From positions 1 to 42,149 of the forward strand of contig JAGDMK010000007.1 of the NCBI GenBank assembly GCA_017860635.1: a stretch of DNA of 42,149 bases, in the 5' to 3' direction. The notes beneath the pieces are model-generated. The model was not told the origin of the DNA. It saw nothing but the letters and a program-made list of their open reading frames with translations, and did no database searches. Both the position numbers and the translations under genes were made by a program. Below are positions 1-15,230 of the stretch, in pieces; the first letter of the stretch is position 1; every line of letters begins with the position of its first letter. Source of the DNA: Bacteroidota bacterium (GTDB lineage: Bacteria > Bacteroidota > Ignavibacteria > UBA10030 > UBA6906).

Positions 1-309
1 CGACAGGCCTGTGCCATTTCATCAATGTGCGCGGTGTTCGCGGAAACCGAAATCATCGGCTTGCTCCATCAGGGTGTGCCGGTGGAAGAGGTCCTCCGGG
101 GTGTCTTTGACGCGGTGGCACGCCGGGTCATCGGAATGGCCGGGAGGATCGGATTGACCGACCCGGTTGTGTTCACCGGCGGCGTCGCCCGCAATGTAGG
201 TATCGTGCAAGCGCTCGAACGTGTAACAGGTCACATGATGCACGTGCCGGACGAACCAGAGTTTACCGGCGCTCTCGGGGCCGCCCTCCTTGCCGCACGA
301 GCGGCATGA
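1..309 (+). CDS. BadF/BadG/BcrA/BcrD-type ATPase, C-terminal part (5' truncated)
   Basis: Open from the first base of the window, so only the last 102 residues are visible. They contain the C-terminal signature of the acyl-CoA dehydratase activase (ASKHA) family: a CAVFAETE segment, then VVFTGGVARNVG, then a TGALGAALLA end. Members hydrolyse ATP to drive electron transfer from a bridging 4Fe-4S cluster into 2-hydroxyacyl-CoA dehydratase or benzoyl-CoA reductase. The Cys in CAVFAETE is the usual cluster ligand region. The gene ends 53 bp before the chosen selD start on the same strand, so cotranscription is likely. A different substrate system within the family is possible, since the partner subunits are outside the window. 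Confidence 0.85.
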   Translation, partial: RQACAISSMCAVFAETEIIGLLHQGVPVEEVLRGVFDAVARRVIGMAGRIGLTDPVVFTGGVARNVGIVQALERVTGHMMHVPDEPEFTGALGAALLAARAA

Positions 310-362
310 ATGCACATACACTCTAAAAGAAAGGATCCATGGAAGGCTTCCAGGAATTCAAT

Positions 363-1683: not shown

Positions 1684-2958
1684 ATGAGAGCGCACCTCTG
1701 CATCGCTGCCGTGCTGGTGGGATCGTTGCTCATTTCTCCCAACTCTCCCGCGCAGTCAGGATGGAAGCCGGACACCATCAAGATCGGAACCATCAGCAAT
1801 CTCTGGGATGTAAAGTTCATCGACGAGAACAGAGGGGTTGTCGTTGGGGATACCGCAGTGAAGACCACAGATGGTGGCAAGACCTGGCAACCTCTCGCAA
1901 ATGCTTATGGATTCAACGGAGAACGATATCTCTTCACGTCTATCCACTGTTTCGATGCAAATCGATGGGTTGCCGTGACGTACGGAACAAGCTTCTACAC
2001 GGTTGATGCCGGCCTGACATGGAAGTGGGACTCAGTCAGGGTTCCACTTGTGAACTTTCGGGGCATTGCCGCGATCCCTGGCGGCCCCTGCATCGCCGTG
2101 GGAATGTATTCCGCCATAGCGCAGTCATTTGACCAGGGAGTGCAGTGGAGCACTGTTTCGTATGTCTTTGACCCTTATGGCCCAAATTACTTCTGTGTTG
2201 CTCCCGTCACCCCGACGAGCTGGGTTGTGGGAGGGGGAAATACTCTGCGAACTGTCAATCCCGGTGTGATCATCCGATCAGTGAACAGCGGCGCAACGTG
2301 GGACACCGTTCGTTTCGCCGCAAGGGTGATCACAGCGGTCTCATTCCCGACTTCTTCAATCGGCTATGCAGCGGGGGATTCTATCTACCGCACGTCCGAC
2401 GGCGGAGCAACGTGGAGCGGGATGTCCCCCATACCGGCATCGGTCCAAGGTATGTCCTTCAAAGATCCTGACGTCGGCACCATCGTCTGCTCCGTTGGAA
2501 AAGTGTTTCGCACAAGAGATGGCGCGAAAACCTGGATACAACAGCAGAGCAATACCAATCTGGATCTGCGTGCAGTCAGTTTTATTGACACGAGCAGAGG
2601 ATGGGCGGTTGGATACCGCGGGATAACCATTCGCACCACGAACGGAGGATGGGGACCGCTGGTATCTGCACCTGAAGTGCCACGAGAGATCCCTCAGGAG
2701 ACATATCTGCACCAGAATTATCCCAACCCTTTCAATCCAGGCACGACCATCGCGTACGAGTTGGCACAGACATCCCACGTGACCCTTACCGTGTACGATC
2801 TGCTCGGTCGCGAAGTGTCAGTGCTTGTGGATGAAGTGATGGGCGCAGGCCGTCACGAGTCGAAGTTCGATGCACGAGCATTGTCGACCGGTGTGTACAT
2901 CTGTCGATTACGCGCCGGCAGCAGTACGGCGTTGAAGACGATGGTGATGCTGAAGTGA
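1684..2958 (+). CDS. Secreted YCF48/BNR-repeat protein with T9SS sorting domain
   Basis: 424 residues starting after a good AAGGAG site (7 nt). An N-terminal signal peptide (residues 1-23, ending SPAQ) precedes repeated beta-propeller blades with the K/RTxDGGxTW Asp-box pattern (KTTDGGKTW, YRTSDGGATW, FRTRDGAKTW), as in YCF48/Hcf136-like and sortilin-like propellers. The last 80 or so residues form a type A T9SS C-terminal domain: NYPNPFNPGTTI, YDLLGREV, LSTGVYICRLRAG. It should therefore be exported by Sec, moved across the outer membrane by the type IX system and cleaved or anchored at the surface. No catalytic residues are apparent; substrate or ligand is unknown. Confidence 0.85.
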   Translation: MRAHLCIAAVLVGSLLISPNSPAQSGWKPDTIKIGTISNLWDVKFIDENRGVVVGDTAVKTTDGGKTWQPLANAYGFNGERYLFTSIHCFDANRWVAVTYGTSFYTVDAGLTWKWDSVRVPLVNFRGIAAIPGGPCIAVGMYSAIAQSFDQGVQWSTVSYVFDPYGPNYFCVAPVTPTSWVVGGGNTLRTVNPGVIIRSVNSGATWDTVRFAARVITAVSFPTSSIGYAAGDSIYRTSDGGATWSGMSPIPASVQGMSFKDPDVGTIVCSVGKVFRTRDGAKTWIQQQSNTNLDLRAVSFIDTSRGWAVGYRGITIRTTNGGWGPLVSAPEVPREIPQETYLHQNYPNPFNPGTTIAYELAQTSHVTLTVYDLLGREVSVLVDEVMGAGRHESKFDARALSTGVYICRLRAGSSTALKTMVMLK

Positions 2959-3056
2959 GAATCTGTTGATTCTGGGTGTGCTATCGGGTACCTTGTCTTA
3001 GCACTGGCATCAACTCCCTTTGGGATGAAACCGCACCTGGACGAGGAATTCAGCCC

Positions 3057-4664
3057 ATGCGCATTCATTGTATTCTCATGATGTTGGTTTTCGGGTTCAT
3101 CACGACACCCGCTCAGACGGGGTTGCAAGCCCTCGTGGCAATCGAGCTCGGGCCGGAGACGAACCAACGAGTGCCCCCACAGCTGCAAATCCCTGTGTTC
3201 CATCAGTTCGACGACGTCCTTATCGCTGCGCTTAGCCCGGAGCAACAGCAGTACTTGACTGATGCCGGGGTCCGATTGACGGTTCTGGACGACCCGCTTG
3301 CTCGGGGAGGATACCTCCTGCTTTCGAAAAAGGAAGGCGCGATGCGCGCCGCCGAAGCCGACGGTTGCGTCGTGCTCTACGAGAAGCAAGGGACGTACAT
3401 TGTCCGCGGGACGGAAGGCGATCAGGTCCGGCTTGCAGCCCGGAACATAAGGAGTGCGGCGCTCCGTGCGACGATGCGGTCACTCGAGGACAATGATGTT
3501 CTGAAGCAGCCGGTTAAAAGTGCGCTTGTCGACAGTCTCATCGCGGTGTTGACAACCAACGTGAATCCGGACACGGTGCGTTGGTTCATCGAAGGACTGA
3601 CAAGCTTCGGCTCGCACCACTACAGGTCAGCGAACCGGCATGCGGTTGCGGAGTGGATTCAAGCCGCTTTCCGGAGAATGGGCTTTGCCGATGTCGTTCT
3701 GGACACATTCATGGCGAACGGCTATGAGCAGACCAATGTTATTGCGACACTTCCATCTTCTTCCGCCACAGAGGATGTCATTGTAATTGGCGGTCACCAT
3801 GACACGGTGGGCTGGAGGGACTCGACCGGTATCTACCCCGGAGCGGATGACAACTCGAGTGGAACCGCCGCCGTCCTCGAGTCTGCACGTGCGCTGACTC
3901 GGGCAGGCTACAAGCCCCGAATGACACTCCGGTTTATCACATTTGCCGCAGAAGAGGCGGGGCTGCTCGGAAGCCGCAGCTACGCGCAGAGGGCATCCCA
4001 GAGTGGTATGAAGATCCGCCTGATGATAAACCACGACATGATTGCTAACTCATCTCTTCAATTGGAGGACGACACCGTTCGGGTGTACTACTATACCGGC
4101 GCGGAATCCTACCGCGAGCTGGCAAAGACGATGACGCAAGAATACACCATGCTCACCCCTGTGGATGGAAACAAGAATTCCGGCGGATCGGACAGCTATT
4201 CCTTTTATTCGGTGGGATACCCCGCAGTGTATTTCTTTGAAAAGACGTTCAGTCCCTGGTACCATTCGACGTCTGATATCATTGCGAACTGCAATATCCC
4301 GTACTGTGCAGAAATCATCCGGGCCTCTGTGGCAACCCTGTTGTATACGGATATTGCCGGACCGGTCACAGGTGTCGATGCTTCCGCTCCCATAACGCCG
4401 GTGTCGCACGCGCTGCTGCAGAACTTCCCAAATCCGTTCAATCCAAGTACAACGATCACATACGAGCTGCCCCGTGCATCACACGTGACGCTGGGAGTCT
4501 ATGATGTGCTAGGCCGTCAGGTCGAGGTATTGGTGAATGATGTGAGGGATGCAGGGCGTCACGAAGTCAGGTTCGACGGGACTGGACTATCGAGCGGAGT
4601 GTATTTCTATCGGTTGCAGACAGATGGTTTTTTGTCTACCAGGAGGATGCTGTTGACGAAGTAG
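3057..4664 (+). CDS. Secreted M28-family zinc aminopeptidase with T9SS sorting domain
   Basis: 535 residues. The start at 3057 follows GAGGAA and gives a clean signal peptide (MRIHC... ending TPAQT); an in-frame ATG at 2976 would put 27 non-signal residues in front. A prodomain-like segment of about 170 residues precedes the M28 catalytic domain, with the co-catalytic zinc ligands visible: H247 and D249 (GGHHDTVG), D264 (PGADDNSSG), E299/E300 (AAEEAGL), D327 (NHDM) and H403 (WYHSTSD). The C-terminal 85 residues are a T9SS type A sorting domain (NFPNPFNPSTTI ... LSSGVYFYRL). Likely role: extracellular removal of N-terminal residues from peptides. It follows the previous T9SS gene by 98 bp, same strand. 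Confidence 0.92.
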   Translation: MRIHCILMMLVFGFITTPAQTGLQALVAIELGPETNQRVPPQLQIPVFHQFDDVLIAALSPEQQQYLTDAGVRLTVLDDPLARGGYLLLSKKEGAMRAAEADGCVVLYEKQGTYIVRGTEGDQVRLAARNIRSAALRATMRSLEDNDVLKQPVKSALVDSLIAVLTTNVNPDTVRWFIEGLTSFGSHHYRSANRHAVAEWIQAAFRRMGFADVVLDTFMANGYEQTNVIATLPSSSATEDVIVIGGHHDTVGWRDSTGIYPGADDNSSGTAAVLESARALTRAGYKPRMTLRFITFAAEEAGLLGSRSYAQRASQSGMKIRLMINHDMIANSSLQLEDDTVRVYYYTGAESYRELAKTMTQEYTMLTPVDGNKNSGGSDSYSFYSVGYPAVYFFEKTFSPWYHSTSDIIANCNIPYCAEIIRASVATLLYTDIAGPVTGVDASAPITPVSHALLQNFPNPFNPSTTITYELPRASHVTLGVYDVLGRQVEVLVNDVRDAGRHEVRFDGTGLSSGVYFYRLQTDGFLSTRRMLLTK

Positions 4665-5326: not shown

Positions 5327-5560
5327 ATGGTCAGCAGTTGGCTTCAGAAATCCCGCACCCCCACAGCATCTCTCCTTGTTGTTGCTCTTCTTCTTGCTTT
5401 CCTGAGTGGTTGCGTCTCCACGAAACAGGCGCTCCTTCTTGAGAGGCGCGCAAACTGCCCGTTGATGAAGGGCATCCAGGACAATGACGAAGACATTGTC
5501 CAGATCGAAGATGGAACCGGTGCCGTAGGGGAGGCTGCCGCCTGCCCTACCTGAGGGTAG
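5327..5560 (+). CDS. Small DUF4266-like lipoprotein, probable C-terminal selenocysteine (CPTU tail)
   Basis: Signal peptide with lipobox FLSGC (Cys29) gives an acylated small lipoprotein. The mature part has the DUF4266 layout as I remember it: an ER-x(3)-C/D-P-x-M segment (ERRANCPLM), an acidic middle, a Gly-containing tail (EDGTGAVGEAAAC), and a Cys pair at the extreme C-terminus (usually GGGCGCN). Stopping at the UGA at 5552-5554 leaves only one tail Cys. Reading UGA as Sec gives C73-P-T-U76-G and a UAG stop at 5558-5560, 77 residues in all. The tail would be a C-x-x-U redox or metal site analogous to the Cys pair. A 4-bp hairpin with a GTT-containing loop (5571-5584) is a weak SECIS candidate. 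First gene of the operon. UGA as a true stop is the alternative. Confidence 0.55.
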
Positions 5561-5563
5561 GGC
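5544..5563 (+). promoter_or_regulatory. Hairpin enclosing the UGA codon of the small lipoprotein
   Basis: A perfect 7-bp stem GCCCTAC/GTAGGGC with hexaloop CTGAGG. The in-frame UGA lies in the loop and the UAG stop in the 3' arm. No T-tract follows, so it is not a standard terminator. It could affect termination/readthrough at the UGA or translation of the next gene. Confidence 0.5.
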
Positions 5564-5570
5564 CATGCTT

Positions 5571-5584
5571 CAGGTGTTCTCCTG
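5571..5584 (+). promoter_or_regulatory. Weak SECIS candidate after the lipoprotein UGA
   Basis: CAGG-TGTTCT-CCTG: a 4-bp stem with a six-base loop containing GTT, loop starting 21 nt after the UGA. The distance fits the other elements in this window but the stem is short and lies 3' of the UAG stop, so it is only suggestive. Confidence 0.25.
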
Positions 5585-5629
5585 TATTCAGGCGCGGCGT
5601 CAGCGCAAGGCTACGACGACGCATTCGAG

Positions 5630-6541
5630 ATGAAGAACAAGCTGAAGGTGGAAGTGCAGTACGCCGACTACGGTGAGTACGAGTATCCCGAGCCAATCCT
5701 CTACCATTACAGTGTCTCCTCTTATCAGAAGATCCAGCCCTTCATCGTCAACTTCCCCGAACTCCGTTCACTTGTGAAGTTCGTGCGCCTGGTCGACTGG
5801 CGCACAGCTCTCGGGATCAAGTATCAGTATTCCGATCTCAAAGAAGATGCTGCGCAGCACTTCGCTGAACTGCGGGTCACCAGGAATCTCTCTGAATCGG
5901 TGATCGGTCTGGGAATGGTGCAGTTCGTCCACGATACGCGCGGCTTCAGCTCCATCCAGGGAGGCGTGGGAGGACAGTGGGACATCAACGTTCTGACGTC
6001 GTTGCAGGGTGATATGCAGTACTATGCGAGGGGATCAGGTGCCACGGCGGTGGGTGGGAGCATGGGCACTTGGAATCTCCGGATCAAAGCGCGGCGTGTG
6101 ATCACGATCTCAACCGCCCTCCAGGGAGAGTACATTTATTACAATGCCAGCGGCGACAACATCTCGTTCCGTTCGCACACTGCGGGGATCTGGATCAGCC
6201 AGTACCTCCCAACGGAAAGCGCTGTGCATCTGCATTTCCGGTATTACACGAATTCCATGGGAATCCACTCCATTGCGCCTTCGCTCGAAATCGCACACTA
6301 CCTGGACTATGCGACGGTGCTGTCCCTGAAGCTCCGGTATTATGAAAACAAGAGTGACAACGTCAGTCTGGGTGAGAGCGATGTGATTATTCCCGATGGA
6401 CTTCGCTCGCGGTCATTAAGCCTCCAGCTGAACAGGGAGTTCGGCAACTCGGTTCTGGCGTACCTGAAGTACAGGTACTATACCAGCTCCCTGGATGTCC
6501 AGATGAACACGTATATGATCGGTGCCGTGTATTCGTTCTAG
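5630..6541 (+). CDS. Outer-membrane beta-barrel protein (start uncertain)
   Basis: 303 residues from ATG 5630, rich in alternating amphipathic strands with many Tyr/aromatics (LRYYENKS, LKYRYYTS) and ending in Phe, the usual BAM signal of an outer-membrane barrel. No family was recognised with certainty; its place after a DUF4266-like lipoprotein and beside thioredoxins resembles clusters carrying DUF3570 barrels, but the sequence match is not convincing. The annotated ATG has no ribosome site and no signal peptide. The frame is open back to 5561 and reads SGAASAQGYDDAFE, which looks like the end of a signal peptide (A-S-A/Q), yet contains no ATG, GTG or TTG. A CTG at 5582, or a missing base that would link ATG 5565 to this frame, could supply the start. 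Confidence 0.7.
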   Translation: MKNKLKVEVQYADYGEYEYPEPILYHYSVSSYQKIQPFIVNFPELRSLVKFVRLVDWRTALGIKYQYSDLKEDAAQHFAELRVTRNLSESVIGLGMVQFVHDTRGFSSIQGGVGGQWDINVLTSLQGDMQYYARGSGATAVGGSMGTWNLRIKARRVITISTALQGEYIYYNASGDNISFRSHTAGIWISQYLPTESAVHLHFRYYTNSMGIHSIAPSLEIAHYLDYATVLSLKLRYYENKSDNVSLGESDVIIPDGLRSRSLSLQLNREFGNSVLAYLKYRYYTSSLDVQMNTYMIGAVYSF

Positions 6542-6566
6542 AGGATGGGATATCCCGGGTCCAATC

Positions 6567-6638
6567 CCTGAGGGGCAGAATATGGTGATGCCGGAGGGGC
6601 AGAAGACGACGATTCCGGAGAGGAGAAGATGACGGCAA
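6567..6638 (+). repeat. Three 24-nt tandem repeats carrying Shine-Dalgarno motifs
   Basis: Imperfect units at 6567-6590, 6591-6614 and 6615-6638. Each begins CCKGAG and contains a GGGG/GGAG purine block followed by AGAA. The third unit supplies the GGAGAGGAGAAG ribosome site and the ATG of the next gene. Confidence 0.75.
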
Positions 6639-7417
6639 AACGGTTCAGGTCGGTTCTTCTTGCGGGACTTGTGATAGGCGCGAGCCTTCTGATCTTGCGG
6701 TGCGGGGATCCTCCGACGGCTGCGCCGGATCAGTACATGGGATCCCTTCGCGTAGCGGCTCTCGACACGCTGACTATCGACTCGATCAGCATTGATCTTG
6801 ACGATGTGAGGATCGGCCGGTTCCGCAATCCCACTCTGCTCGGTGATGTCGTGGCCGGAATCCACAAGGTCCTGGTGTCGAACACACCCGCCGTCACAGC
6901 GTCGCGTACGGTAGAAATATTTCGGGGACGGCGGACGGACCTGTTCGTCCAGCTTCAGACCAGCGGTCCGTATGTGGGCGGCACTGCACCCCTCTTTACT
7001 GCCCGGGCTGTAAACGGCGACACTATCGCGATTGCGAAGTTGAAAGGCAAGGCCATCTTCCTCGCCTTCTTCGAGCACACCTGAACAGACTGCATCTGGA
7101 CGGAGTTGCCGTCCTTCCAATGGGAGTTGCGACCCGCGGTTTCGCCGGACAGCCTTGTCATTGCGGCCATCAACAACACATCATCAACATCGTGGCTGAA
7201 CACGTACAGAGGATCACGGGGTATCACCTATCCCCTGGTCTATGATTCCACGAGCCAGATCTTTCAGGCATACCAGGTGGGGACGCAGTACGGCAATGCT
7301 CCGCCCACGTACATTATCATTGATACAAAAGGTGTTATTCAGTACCGGGTGGATGACAAATTCAACCGTACGTCCGAGATTATTGCCAAGGTCAGGGATG
7401 TACTGAAGAACCCGTAA
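6629..7417 (+). CDS. PEGA/thioredoxin-like lipoprotein with selenocysteine (UxxC)
   Basis: 262 residues read through UGA at 7082-7084 (residue 152). Signal peptide with lipobox LILRC (Cys25); residues about 35-110 look like a PEGA-type beta domain (GDVVAGIHKVLV ... FRGRRTDLFVQL). From 112 on it is a thioredoxin fold of the TlpA/AhpC type: TAPLFTARAVNGDTIAI, LKGKAIFLAFFEHT-U-T-D-C-IWTELPSF, and cis-Pro in NAPPTYIIID. U replaces the attacking Cys and C155 is the resolving Cys. Both halves are needed for the fold, and the second half has no credible start. A strong SECIS-like hairpin follows. Expected location: periplasmic face of a membrane, as a thiol/selenol oxidoreductase. Strong GAGGAG ribosome site. 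Normal genes here also end in UGA, so this is not a code change. Confidence 0.9.
7098..7114 (+). promoter_or_regulatory. SECIS hairpin of the thioredoxin-like lipoprotein gene
   Basis: A perfect 6-bp stem GGACGG/CCGTCC closes pentaloop AGTTG (7104-7108), loop beginning 20 nt after the UGA. Compared with the hairpin at 9943-9959, loop and three closing pairs are the same, while two stem pairs differ by compensating changes (A-T for G-C, G-C for A-T). Confidence 0.75.
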
Positions 7418-7448
7418 CGAGTGGTCAAACCAGGAAGGAGGTGGCGGC

Positions 7449-9719
7449 ATGAGAAGAAGAGTGTTGCGGACCTGCTCCATCTGGTTGTTGCTTCTGATTC
7501 CGTGGATGGCGCAGGCGCAGTGGCAGTGGATCGGTCCGTCGGGAGGGATGCTCGCGGGATTCGCCCAGTCGCCGTCGAGCCCGAACATTCTCTATGCGGC
7601 ATCACAAGTCTACCCTGCCGGTGTCTACAAGACAACCAATCGGGGAGATTTGTGGACGAGGGTCGGCTCGATTTCAACATACCCGTATGCGATTGCGGTT
7701 CATCCGACGACTCCGTCAACGGTATACATCGCAGCAGGCTATCAGGTCTGCAAGAGCACGGATGGAGGTGTCAACTGGACAAGCGTCAATTTGGAGACGT
7801 CGCACTATGCCCGTTCGATTAGCCTGCAACCGGGCAATCCTTCAATTCTGCACTGCTCAGCGTACTATTATAATACAACTACGCAAGTACCTAATCTCGC
7901 GTATCTAAAGAGCACCAATGCAGGATTGACGTGGTCTGCCAAGATTGTTTCATCGGACTACGGCTTTGGGTACGCTGCAGTGGGAGATCCCACAAACGCG
8001 AATATCGTCTACGTGTGCGGGTATTGTGAGTCCGGGGGCATGTACCTGGGCAAGGTCTACAAGAGTACAAATGGCGGGACTGATTTTATTGATCAGACCG
8101 GTACCATAACAGGGTATGTCTACGATCTGGCTCACGATCCGGCTGTAGCGGGAAAGATCTATGCAGCCTCGTCGGCGGGAGTCTACCGTTCAACGGACGG
8201 GGGGAGTACTTGGACGCAGAGCACTGGGGTGTACAGCGTGGAGCACATCGCCATTTGCCCGGGCAATACATCGATGCTCTATAGCGGAACATCGAGCGGG
8301 CAAGTGTACAAGAGCACTGATGGAGGGAGCAACTGGTCAGTGGCACCGACAGGCCTGACGGGCTTGAGCAGCATGGGATTGGCTGTCGAGACTGCGTCAA
8401 CTGTGTTCCATGCAACTGTTGCCGGCGTATTCAGGACAACGAATGGCGGAACGCTGTGGACACCGGTGAACACGGGGATCTCTGCGGCTCACATTACATG
8501 CGTGCGTCATGCGCCCTCCAACCCTTCTGTCGTCTATGCGGGAGTGAGCGGCGACGCGGTGTACAAAACTACAACGGCAGGTCAGGCGACAGTGACCTGG
8601 TCAAGGATACCGGACTTCTATTCGTGCACGGAGGTGTCGGATATCATCATCTCGCCGACCAGCCCGGATATCCTGTATGCCCTGGAAGGGGGCACATGAG
8701 GGAACTCAGGGCTCTATAAGAGCACAAGTGGCGGGTCCACTTGGTCCGAAATTGACAATGTCATCAGCGACGGATTTGCCCTGGCGTTTGGTTCTCTCTA
8801 TGAAGCAGGAAGTTGGTACGATGGCGTAAGCCAGCTCAACCGTATGGCCGTCTGCAAGAGCACGAATGAGGGTACTTCCTGGTCCCGTACGTTCCTGAGC
8901 ACAGACGCGGGTCAGGTCAACAGCATGCAACCTCAGCCCGGCAACAACAATGTTCTCCTGGCCGGAGGGTTCACGATGACCAGTGGGTCGTACACACGGT
9001 ACTGCAAACTGTACCGGTCAACTGATGCGGGGTCATCATGGAATCAGGTCGGGGCTTCCGTATTGTCTGCATCGGATGAATATGTCAATGCGATTGCATG
9101 GGATCCAAACAGCGCAAATCATGTCCTGGTCGGCAGCAGTCGAGGCGTTTATGCCAGCACGGATGCAGGAGCGACATGGTCGGTGCTGACGAACACGTAC
9201 TCCCCATATGATATTATTGCAGATCCCGGTAGATCGAACTGCTTCTACCTGGGATACTACAACGGGGTGTATGTGACAACGAACGGAGGAACCAGTTGGA
9301 CCGCGATGAACACCGGTCTGAACACGCTCGATATCCGACGTCTGACACTCGATCCAACCAACCGGCGGCTGTTCGCTGGGACATATGGAGATGGGATTTA
9401 CCGTATCAGCGTGCTCACTGATGTGCCCGGCAACGAAGTACCCGGGACTCCGCCGCTGCAGTTTGCGCTGAATCAGAACTACCCTAATCCGTTCAATCCC
9501 GCAACGACGATAACATTCACTGTCCCGGAAAGCGACGTGTACCAACTAGCAGTGTACGACATGCTCGGGCAGGTTGTTGCGGTGCTGCTGGATGGCCGGC
9601 TGGAAGCGGGGAATCACACTGTTGCGTTCGACGGTGCGACACTGGCTTCCGGTACGTACTTCTGCAGGCTGACAGGCCATGCGGGAACCCTGGTGCGCAC
9701 TATGGCACTCATCAGATAG
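7449..9719 (+). CDS. Large secreted BNR-repeat protein with T9SS sorting domain, interrupted by in-frame UGA
   Basis: 756 residues if UGA at 8697-8699 (residue 417) is read. Strong AAGGAGG ribosome site, signal peptide ending AQAQ, then many Asp-box propeller blades (YKSTNGGTDF, YRSTDGGSTW, YKSTDGGSNW, YRSTDAGSSW) and a T9SS type A tail (NYPNPFNPATTI ... LASGTYFCRL). The frame continues unchanged after the UGA (EGGT-U-GNSGLYKSTSGGSTW), with the next blade complete and no start codon near, so the two halves were one gene. Explanations: selenocysteine (it lies between two selenoprotein genes; a 7-bp hairpin follows), a TGG-to-TGA nonsense change (Trp would fit), or a sequence error. There is no Cys within a few residues of U. 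Spacing: 31 bp after the previous gene, 12 bp before the next. Confidence 0.85.
8725..8743 (+). promoter_or_regulatory. Possible SECIS hairpin in the BNR-repeat gene
   Basis: CAAGTGG/CCACTTG, a perfect 7-bp stem with pentaloop CGGGT, loop starting 33 nt after the UGA. A second small hairpin GCTCT-ATA-AGAGC (8711-8723) lies closer. Neither has the AG loop of the three strong elements, and this sequence is part of a recurring Asp-box codon pattern, so support is weak. Confidence 0.3.
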
Positions 9720-9731
9720 GAACCGTGCTTT

Positions 9732-10226
9732 ATGATCCACACCCGAACAGGGATTACTGCCCTTCTCCTTCTTCTCTTCTGTATCGCCGGGGTGTTCGCA
9801 CAGGAGGGACTGAAATCCGGCCTCAAGGCACCGGACTTCAAGCTCCCTACTGTGGGTGGAAAGCGGAACGTGACCCTGCGGGAGTTCAACGGGAAGGGTG
9901 TGGTAATCCTCCATTTCTGGAAGTCGCGCTGAAGGGAATGTCAGGCGGAGTTTCCGCCTTTGCAGAAGATCTTCAGCGAGTTCAAGAACGTCACGATCCT
10001 CTCCATCAATCCGATTGATATGGAAGGGAAGGTGGCGTCCGACGCCAAGTCCTTCAAGCTTCCGTACACCGTGCTTGTGGGGCGTGATTCGGATGTGATC
10101 GAGAAATACAAGATCACAAAGCTCCCGCGTCTGGTGATTGTGAAAAAGAATGGTGTGATTGCGGCGACGGAGAAGTTCATGAAACTGGACCCCCTCCGCG
10201 CGCAGGTCAAGCTTGCGTTGAAGTAA
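9732..10226 (+). CDS. TlpA/ResA-like thioredoxin with selenocysteine (UxxC)
   Basis: 164 residues read through UGA at 9930-9932 (residue 67). Signal peptide (ALLLLLFCIAGVFAQ) then a TlpA-like fold: LKAPDFKLPTVGGKRNVTL, VVILHFWKSR-U-R-E-C-QAEFPPLQ, ITKLPRLVIVKKNG with the cis-Pro. This aligns with the family motif WASWCPPCRAExPxLQ, so U67 takes the place of the nucleophilic Cys and C70 is the resolving Cys. The upstream half alone would lack the active site; the downstream half lacks a signal and start. A perfect SECIS-like hairpin follows the UGA. Expected to act outside the cytoplasmic membrane as a reductase or peroxidase-type selenol enzyme. Last gene of the operon, 12 bp after the T9SS gene, followed by a terminator. 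Confidence 0.92.
9943..9959 (+). promoter_or_regulatory. SECIS hairpin of the TlpA-like gene
   Basis: AGGCGG/CCGCCT 6-bp stem with loop AGTTT (9949-9953), loop starting 17 nt after the UGA. The core CGGAGTT-N-CCG is shared with the element at 7098-7114. Part of the sharing follows from the conserved E-[LF]-P codons, but the differing stem pairs still match. Confidence 0.75.
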
Positions 10227-10259: not shown

Positions 10260-10298
10260 AACGCCGTGTCTGCTTGTGCAGGCACGGCGTTTGCATTT
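10260..10298 (+). terminator. Terminator of the selenoprotein operon
   Basis: AACGCCGTG/CACGGCGTT (9 bp, 10260-10268 with 10283-10291) with an inner CTGC-TTGT-GCAG stem, followed by TTGCATTT. Lies 34 bp after the last selenoprotein gene. Confidence 0.7.
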
Positions 10299-12998: not shown

Positions 12999-15230
12999 TC
13001 AGGAGTTCTGTTTGTGCTTCTCTGTAAAGTACCCGAGCGCAAGACCCAGCACAAACACGACAAGGGCAACGGCGCCGAGGGCAAAGATCGTATCCCCGAA
13101 GACACGCGCCCATTTGATGTTCTGAAGGAGCGGAGTAGCCAGGAACTCTGCGCTGCGCGCATACCAGTATCCGTGCTTCACCGATGCCCAGGTCTGCAAG
13201 AGGCCAACCGGAAGAAGGCTTCCCACCACCATCATCATCAACCCGATGTTCAAGCCCCAGAACGAGTACTTCACCAACCGTTCTTTCCATGTGTGCTGGA
13301 TCCACATGACGCGAAGGCAGAAGAGCATCAGACCGATGCCAAGCATGCCATAGACGCCGAAGAGCGCGGCATGTCCGTGGACCGGCGTTGTGTTAAGTCC
13401 CTGCATATAATAGAGAGCTATGGGAGGGTTGATCATAAAGCCAAAGAGCCCGGCGCCGACCATGTTCCAGAACGCGACTGCGATGAAGAAATAGATCGGC
13501 CACTTGTACGTTGTCGTCCAGGATGTCGCCCGGGAGAGTTTCAGATTGTCCCAGGCTTCAAAGCCTGCCAGCACCAGCGGTACAACCTCCAGGGCGCTGA
13601 AGACCGCACCGAGGGCGAGGATCGGCGTTGGAGTTCCGGAGAAGTAAAGGTGATGGAGGGTCCCGATGATTCCTCCGGCCAGATAGACTGTGGAGGAGAG
13701 GATGACCGCCGTGTTGGCCGTGCGGACCCGGATGAGCTGGAGACGGGCGAACATGAAGATGATAATCACCGTTGCGAACACTTCAAAAAAGCCCTCGACC
13801 CAGAGATGGACCACCCACCAGCGCCAGTATTCCGCCACAGCCAGATTGGTGTGCTGTCCCCACATCAGACCGGCCATGTAGAAACCGCCAATGGCCACTG
13901 CGGAAATGAGGAAGAGCACGAGGAGCGATTTGTGTTCGTCGTTACGCCGGATCGCAACGAGGATGTTGCGTCCGACCAGATAGACCCAGAAGAGCAATCC
14001 CGCAGCAAGTGCAATCTGCCACACGCGCCCGAGGTCGACATACTCATATCCCTGATGGCCGAAGTAGAACCAGCTGTCACCCGACAGCTTGTGGTGAATG
14101 CTCAGGAGCTGACCGGCCATGGAGCCGAGCACGACAACCAGCAGTGCTCCGAACAGCACGTTGACCCCGAAGAGCTGACCCTTCATTTCTTTGCCGCTGA
14201 CCGCAGGCGCGATATATAGTCCGGATGCCAGCCAGGCGGTGGCAATCCAAAAGATGCCGAGCTGAACATGCCACGTACGGGTCAGAACATACGGGAGCCA
14301 GTCACTCAGCGGTATTCCATAGAATCCATTCCCCTCCACACCATAGTGGGCAGTGATGATACCCACCACGATCTGGAGGAGGATGAGACCGGAAACCACG
14401 TAGAAATATTTCAGCGTGGCCCATTGCGAAGGGGTGTGGGTACTGTCGAAGAGCGGATCAGAGGAGGGGACCATGGTCGGGAGCGATTCCGACTCGCGGG
14501 ATGCGTGGAACCACACCATGAAGCCGATACCGGCGAGCAGCAGGATTATGCTGACGCCTGTCCACACGACGGCGTCGGCTGTCGGACGGTTGTCGACGAG
14601 GTCTTCGTGTGGCCAGTTGCTGGTGTAGGTTATGTCATCTCCCGGTCTGTTTGTCGAGGCTGCCCAGGATGTCCAGAAAAAGAATGCCGCGAGATGGCGC
14701 AGCCGTTCGGGATCGCTTTGCGCACCGCGGGGAATAGAGTACGCGGTGTTGCCATTGGCAAACACGTCTGCGTAGTACGCAGCATTCGCGCTGAACGCTT
14801 CTGCCCGAACAGGATTCAGGGTCAGTCGGCCGGTAGCCGGGTCGAACGTGTTTGTACGCATAAGCGTGGAGAGGCGTGACTGCAGGGCGGCCTGCTCTTC
14901 TGCAGGGAGGGCTGCGAACTTGACTTCCCGGCGTTCCCGTGCCCAGGTATTGAGAATGTACTCGCACTCGCGGTGGAGCCAGTCTGCGGTCCAGTCGGGG
15001 GCAACGTAGCTGCCGTGTCCCCAGATGGAGCCCAGTTCCATGCCCCCCATGGCCTGCCAGACATTCTGGCCGCGGCTGATGTCTTCGCCGGTCATGACCT
15101 GCCGGCCGTCTGTCGTGACGACAGCGTCAGGAATGGGGGGCTTTTCCTGGTAGATACGCCAGCCCGCCCAGCCGAGCACGAGGAAACCGAGGACGACAAC
15201 CGTCACGAAGGCAATCCAGTAGGCTTTCAT
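12999..15230 (-). CDS. norZ: Quinol-dependent nitric oxide reductase (qNor)
   Basis: 743 residues, single-subunit fusion of NorC-like and NorB-like parts. N-terminal membrane helix (residues 5-28), a periplasmic domain of about 190 residues (GQNVWQAMGGMELGSIWGHGSYVAPDW), then about 12 further helices of the heme-copper oxidase type. Visible motifs include TWHVQLGIFWIATAWLASGLYIAP, WGQHTNLAVAEYWRWWVVHLWVEGFFEVFA with the active-site Glu region, and GTLHHLYFSGTP with the metal His pair. It reduces NO to N2O using menaquinol, as defence or as part of denitrification. There are no heme c CXXCH motifs, which separates it from cNor. CAGGAG lies 7 nt before the ATG. No nitrite reductase or regulator gene is near, which suggests a detoxification role. 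Confidence 0.93.
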   Translation of the reverse strand: MKAYWIAFVTVVVLGFLVLGWAGWRIYQEKPPIPDAVVTTDGRQVMTGEDISRGQNVWQAMGGMELGSIWGHGSYVAPDWTADWLHRECEYILNTWARERREVKFAALPAEEQAALQSRLSTLMRTNTFDPATGRLTLNPVRAEAFSANAAYYADVFANGNTAYSIPRGAQSDPERLRHLAAFFFWTSWAASTNRPGDDITYTSNWPHEDLVDNRPTADAVVWTGVSIILLLAGIGFMVWFHASRESESLPTMVPSSDPLFDSTHTPSQWATLKYFYVVSGLILLQIVVGIITAHYGVEGNGFYGIPLSDWLPYVLTRTWHVQLGIFWIATAWLASGLYIAPAVSGKEMKGQLFGVNVLFGALLVVVLGSMAGQLLSIHHKLSGDSWFYFGHQGYEYVDLGRVWQIALAAGLLFWVYLVGRNILVAIRRNDEHKSLLVLFLISAVAIGGFYMAGLMWGQHTNLAVAEYWRWWVVHLWVEGFFEVFATVIIIFMFARLQLIRVRTANTAVILSSTVYLAGGIIGTLHHLYFSGTPTPILALGAVFSALEVVPLVLAGFEAWDNLKLSRATSWTTTYKWPIYFFIAVAFWNMVGAGLFGFMINPPIALYYMQGLNTTPVHGHAALFGVYGMLGIGLMLFCLRVMWIQHTWKERLVKYSFWGLNIGLMMMVVGSLLPVGLLQTWASVKHGYWYARSAEFLATPLLQNIKWARVFGDTIFALGAVALVVFVLGLALGYFTEKHKQNS

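Follow-up and report, generated by a model that had tools for sequence, protein, structure and literature searches.

Four selenoproteins and an outer-membrane barrel encoded together in an Ignavibacteria genome: a possible thiol/selenol redox system of the cell envelope

The DNA analysed here (42,149 nt; hereafter the window) is the whole of contig JAGDMK010000007.1 (C190), from the 3.94-Mb, 88% complete metagenome-assembled genome (MAG) of an Ignavibacteria bacterium (GCA_017860635.1; G000). Between positions 5327 and 10226 it carries five + strand genes, g1 to g5, with intergenic gaps of 4, 87, 31 and 12 nt, and all except g2 contain an in-frame UGA. In order, they encode a small lipoprotein of 77 aa (g1, 5327–5560; UGA at 5552–5554, TAG at 5558–5560), an outer-membrane barrel with 16 predicted strands and distant similarity to DUF3570 (g2, 5561–6541), a lipid-anchored thioredoxin of the ResA/AhpC-TSA type (g3, 6629–7417; PF00578, E=8.6e-15) with the motif EHTUTDC (UGA at 7082; U denotes selenocysteine, Sec), a secreted BNR (Asp-box) propeller with a type IX secretion system (T9SS) tail (g4, 7449–9719; PF15902, PF18962; UGA at 8697), and an exported ResA-like thioredoxin with the motif WKSRUREC (g5, 9732–10226; PF00578, E=1.5e-18; UGA at 9930).

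Upstream, on the same strand, lie selD (363–1445; TIGR00476, E=5.9e-100), whose product, selenide water dikinase, is itself a selenoprotein (ACAGUAGK, UGA at 426), and selC (1483–1579), which specifies a tRNA-Sec with anticodon UCA (Rfam RF01852, 70.5 bits; also called by ARAGORN). SelB (328 bits) is encoded on another contig of the genome (C287), adjoined by a putative selA, an open reading frame (ORF) of 483 aa; these, with selD and selC, are the Sec machinery genes of the genome. Standard gene calling loses genes of this kind: here the calls for selD, g3, g4 and g5 are cut short or broken in two at the UGA, and the selD ORF under translation table 11 starts only downstream of it.

A close relative of the locus was found in another MAG from the same order of Ignavibacteria, and the source genome was compared with G090 (same order, other family), G393 (a third lineage; locus L018) and G079. 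G090 has all four operon UGAs at the corresponding positions, and G393 has three of them; wherever one of the genes is present in these genomes or in G079, its UGA stands at the position that it has in the window. The positions are kept in proteins that have diverged to 29–64% identity between lineages, homology extends to both sides of the in-frame UGA in g1, g3, g4, g5 and selD, and the Cys..Sec pair of SelD is kept in all four genomes.

Bacterial Sec insertion sequences (bSECIS) have been modelled as hairpins with a small apical loop, among whose first positions is a G followed by G or U, 16–37 nt from the UGA, on a stem of at least 4 bp (PMC13188914). The hairpins of this locus, 16–32 nt beyond the UGA (+19 to +35 from its U), have loops of AGUU, AGGU, AGGCU or CGGGU and fit this model, though the g1 hairpin of the window does so with a stem of just 4 bp. 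The bSECIS hairpin of selD (CCGGCCAGGCTGGCCGG, 444–460) stands at the same place in G090, G079 and G393; that of g3 (GGACGG-AGTTG-CCGTCC, 7098–7114) shows a compensatory change from G-C to A-U in G090; the 19 nt of g4 (CAAGTGG-CGGGT-CCACTTG, 8725–8743) are identical in G090 though the proteins are 43% identical; and g5 has a further hairpin that fits the model (AGGCGGA-GTT-TCCGCCT, 9943–9959). The possible bSECIS of g1 (CAGG-TGTTCT-CCTG, 5571–5584) corresponds to a 5-bp hairpin with an AGGT loop in G090, the 3' arm of which is lost in the window. All five lie on the + strand. Counting every TGA triplet in the window, 3.1% have a SECIS-like hairpin with a stem of at least 6 bp downstream, against four of the five Sec UGAs of the locus. 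Identical residues are written with the same codon in 60 of 79 cases inside the hairpins and in 243 of 592 outside them (Fisher p=6e-9, the pairs not being independent), and judged by this codon usage the hairpin codons are conserved beyond the needs of the protein.

Because independent genomes have UGA at matching codons, flanked by homologous sequence, and because there are SECIS hairpins under synonymous-site constraint and a Sec machinery in the genome, we identify the UGAs of g1, g3, g4 and g5 as Sec codons. We reject as extremely improbable the alternative that they are real stops, leaving truncated proteins, pseudogenes or assembly errors, although the MAG is incomplete and a small deletion in the signal region of the barrel (see below) does indicate that assembly or strain is imperfect here. 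The original prediction, made from the bare sequence, of a selenoprotein operon with an in-frame UGA in four of five genes is thus confirmed and strengthened, and the UxxC thioredoxins, CPTU tail, barrel and T9SS protein that it described were all recovered and are conserved.

The lipoprotein g1 ends in EDGTGAVGEAAACPTUG-stop, of which CPTUG-stop is invariant in G090 and G393. In the three lineages the UGA is followed by one Gly codon (GGG, GGG, GGC) and then TAG, so that Sec decoding adds exactly Sec-Gly. The arrangement is reminiscent of mammalian thioredoxin reductase, which ends in GCUG. The only genomes in which such a CPTUG lipoprotein was seen are the three with the barrel; candidate relatives in four others (G269, G304, G243 and G223) were rejected, since only the signal and lipobox region is common. 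The likeness to DUF4266 lipoproteins that the original prediction drew holds at most in a loose sense for g1: there is no match to PF14086 at E<=1, no DUF4266 in the source genome, and the CPTUG end is unlike the C-terminal CxC of DUF4266. Filing g1 directly in this family was rejected, the Pfam cut-off not being reached. A marginal hhalign alignment with four DUF4266 proteins (E=0.0019, probability 14%), over the signal peptide and a DPIM/CPLM segment, suggests that g1 is possibly a distant relative.

The barrel g2 likewise falls below the Pfam threshold for DUF3570 (PF12094, 13.5 bits against a gathering score of 25, E=0.031) and was not placed in that family. Its hhalign match to DUF3570 (E=7e-4, probability 26%) is confined to one segment, and among 396 genomes of the phylum its hidden Markov model matched a DUF3570 protein within a DUF4266–DUF3570–ApbE cluster (E=1.3e-4); from these alignments g2 is probably homologous to DUF3570, far diverged. 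The predicted structure is of low confidence (pLDDT, the predicted local distance difference test, 57) and matches only generic outer-membrane barrels. In this assembly the signal peptide is out of frame and the first in-frame ATG is at 5630: within 5565–5615 the barrel start, ATGCTTCAGGTG, precedes a gap of ~28 nt in comparison with G090, downstream of CAGGTG and close to 5575. The gap removes both the signal-peptide frame and the 3' arm of the g1 hairpin, and their joint loss suggests a deletion in the assembly or the strain. The claim that all five proteins are exported therefore stands for most of them, the barrel as assembled being the exception.

Clusters of DUF3570, DUF4266, thioredoxin-like and ApbE proteins, linked to DsbD, were described in 2021, with DUF3570 flavinylated by ApbE and DUF4266 ending in CxC (PMC8238504), which corrects the earlier view that no related system had been described. 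Relatives in the same family as our genome carry such clusters in the usual Cys form, in which DUF4266 ends in GGGCGCAK, DUF3570 bears TGAT and the thioredoxin has CAPC; they belong to that published system. The operon resembles them in its small lipoprotein with a C-terminal redox pair, followed by an outer-membrane-type beta protein and a thioredoxin, and in the weak sequence similarity of the barrel and marginal similarity of the lipoprotein. It differs in having Sec for Cys, CPTUG for CxC, no ApbE and no conserved flavinylation motif, in adding a T9SS propeller selenoprotein and linkage to selD and selC, and in its extreme rarity. An electron conduit of the DUF3570 type proper, with FMN (flavin mononucleotide) bound to the barrel by ApbE, would accord with that distant similarity and with an SGAT in the window barrel that resembles [ST]GA[ST]. 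The motif is absent from the G090 and G393 barrels, however, and the source genome has no apbE, so that flavinylation is not required in this branch; we reject the flavinylated reading for it as most improbable. The barrel probably, and the lipoprotein possibly, represent a side branch of the DUF3570/DUF4266 envelope redox clusters that is far diverged and independent of flavin.

Both thioredoxins combine an AhpC-TSA/Redoxin domain with a CxxC-type motif in the form UxxC, as in ResA/TlpA oxidoreductases, whose Sec-containing UxxC forms share the fold family and motif position of g3 and g5. Unlike those proteins, g3 and g5 are fixed members of this operon, and g3 carries, besides its lipid anchor, an additional N-terminal domain. 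Among four g3 sequences no Cys/Sec column is conserved apart from the lipid-bearing Cys25, Sec152 and Cys155; the Cys of the lipobox is kept though the box is non-canonical in the window (LRC). In g5, Sec67 and Cys70 are invariant in four genomes and are its sole invariant Cys/Sec residues. Since g3 resembles peroxiredoxins roughly as closely as it does ResA, and thiol oxidoreductases and redox-motif proteins make up most of the catalogued selenoproteins (PMC13188914), the Sec-TlpA proteins could serve in envelope repair or peroxide defence, as peroxidases or as reductants of oxidised outer-membrane and T9SS cargo, beside a barrel that is an ordinary porin. We consider this unlikely: the motifs are UxxC, not the peroxidase PxxxTxxU, and a porin alone would not explain why barrel, lipoprotein and propeller co-occur across lineages.

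The propeller g4 carries Sec417 in GGTUGNSGLY, for which the G090 counterpart, its UGA kept, reads GGGUGTSGLY; C393, U417 and C739 are its only conserved Cys/Sec residues. Its C-terminal sorting domain scores above threshold in two models (PF18962, 34.1 against 27 bits; TIGR04183, 40.1 against 23), marking it as T9SS cargo, and its predicted structure has a pLDDT of 64, with the Sec loop below 50. A search for a Cys form of this BNR selenoprotein yielded none, the nearest relative having Gly at the Sec position.

Across genomes this gene set is very rare. A clear tRNA-Sec (at least about 59 bits, 93–95 nt) is present in only five of 391 genomes of the class, and the barrel in two of those five, the same number (2/391) that barrel searches returned for the whole class. 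The search of 396 phylum genomes returned only the source genome and the one DUF3570 protein, a scan of 84,980 species genomes added two further loci, and no barrel relatives were found among viral contigs or plasmids. In G090, one contig reads selD, tRNA-Sec, CPTUG-stop lipoprotein, barrel, thioredoxin (GUGGGC), thioredoxin lipoprotein (EHTULDC) and BNR protein; a second bears a paralogous set (barrel end, GUGGGC, EHTULTC, BNR protein with GGGUGTSGLY, and WKSKUREC), in which the order barrel, TlpA lipoprotein, BNR and TlpA recurs. The two contigs could represent two strains rather than two paralogous operons. The G393 locus reads selD, barrel, LDTUSSC lipoprotein, WKSKUREC, tRNA-Sec and a TPR protein, and G079 has only selD, tRNA-Sec and WKSKUREC. 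The TPR gene of G393 (L018:12601–14424) has a C-terminal Sec thioredoxin domain (KPGUGAC) and its own SECIS hairpin. Upstream of selD in the same locus (L018:4917–8510) is an ATP-binding cassette (ABC) transporter with three subunits, the best NCBIfam matches of which, below cut-off, are SaoX, SaoP and SaoA; another barrel comes next.

Several unrelated selenoproteins, thioredoxin-like ones included, are likewise encoded together in the SAO and Tso operons (PMC13188914); our comparison draws on that review and on the NCBIfam models, to which none of the operon proteins matched. Unlike those systems, the operon described here encodes proteins exported to the envelope, a barrel and T9SS cargo among them. 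The 119-family catalogue of May 2026 lists no counterpart of the CPTUG lipoprotein or of the T9SS BNR selenoprotein, and NCBIfam 20.0 holds no selenoprotein model for them; they apparently constitute two undescribed selenoprotein families. Rarely are several exported selenoproteins maintained as a single unit, as they are here, for the most part next to the Sec machinery.

The Sec codons, Cys/Sec pairs, export signals and lipid anchors, T9SS tail, gene order and linkage to selD and selC, all legible in the sequence, suggest a genuine operon of four selenoproteins and a barrel that works as a thiol/selenol redox system of the periplasm and outer membrane, a reading that we hold to be about evenly poised between right and wrong. 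By analogy with the ResA/TlpA and DsbD families, from which we infer the partners, the direction of transfer and the final substrate, a DsbD/CcdA protein, the inner-membrane exporter of reductant (found in G000, G090, G393 and G079), would reduce the soluble UREC thioredoxin g5, which would pass electrons to the lipid-anchored UxxC thioredoxin g3 and this in turn to the flexible C-terminal CPTUG tail of g1. Sitting at the barrel, which may act as scaffold or gate, g1 would make reducing equivalents available on or close to the surface; there g4, with its own Cys393/Sec417 pair, could be the outermost partner.

Several observations weigh against this scheme. DsbD lies outside the operon; the mature barrel contains neither Cys nor Sec, and its SGAT is peculiar to the window; the CPTUG lipoprotein of G393 is unlinked, near the end of another contig, and the BNR gene is absent from that cluster; and no barrel was found in G079, where the UREC thioredoxin stands beside selC, so that this thioredoxin can work without the rest. 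The entry of g1 into the barrel and the passage of electrons across the outer membrane are suppositions. The original interpretation is partly supported: the operon is best read as having an envelope redox role, with the relay across the outer membrane its conjectural part.

The fuller version, a conduit free of haem and flavin in which selenol/thiol exchange carries reducing equivalents through the outer membrane, from periplasmic Sec-thioredoxins to the CxxU tail of a barrel-held lipoprotein and on to a Sec surface propeller, strikes us as doubtful. The barrel, lipoprotein and surface protein resemble porin-cytochrome (Mtr-type) conduits by analogy only, and all five proteins, unlike those conduits, lack the CxxCH haem motif. 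If the relay is real, thiol/selenol chemistry would play at the outer membrane the part that haems have in such conduits, and it would offer a handle on the uncharacterised DUF3570/DUF4266 clusters.

Alternatively, the C-x-x-Sec tail and the Sec thioredoxins might bind or reduce soft metals or metalloids (Cu, Hg, As, Se oxyanions) that enter by way of the barrel. CPTUG and UREC would make good soft-metal ligands, the linkage to selD could mean selenium supply, and the G393 cluster follows the ABC transporter with best matches to SAO (organometallic) models. Those matches are far below cut-off, however, and the ORFs concerned have no UGA; the operon holds no metal-binding family, and its motifs are the standard thioredoxin UxxC of ResA-like proteins. 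We think metal handling rather improbable.

A single shared promoter and terminator had also been proposed for the operon. The scans gave no such indication: three promoter-like sites against 3.5 expected by chance, and no terminator listed downstream of g5. A G+C-rich hairpin with an imperfect T tail, read in the sequence at 10260–10291 (+ strand) and absent from the scan list, is a possible terminator.

Between tRNA-Sec and the operon (1684–4664) lie genes for two T9SS proteins, one of the BNR type and the other an M28 peptidase, whereas in G090 the lipoprotein directly follows tRNA-Sec. In G000, G090, G079 and G393, selD has as neighbours the genes for a 2-hydroxyglutaryl-CoA-dehydratase D-type protein and for its activator, of the BadF type; in G000 they adjoin SelB on C287 (L034), and the activator seems to run into the first bases of the window (1–360). 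The G393 dehydratase-like proteins weakly match a double-cubane reductase model. After the second G090 operon (L014; G090:C158, minus strand), beyond its TlpA gene, come genes for a multihaem cytochrome and for a molybdopterin-type oxidoreductase that by eye resemble ActA/ActB of alternative complex III. Finally, the minus strand of the window encodes nitric oxide reductase subunit B (13002–15230; qNor type, PF22085 and COX1), and thus the organism probably respires or detoxifies nitric oxide.

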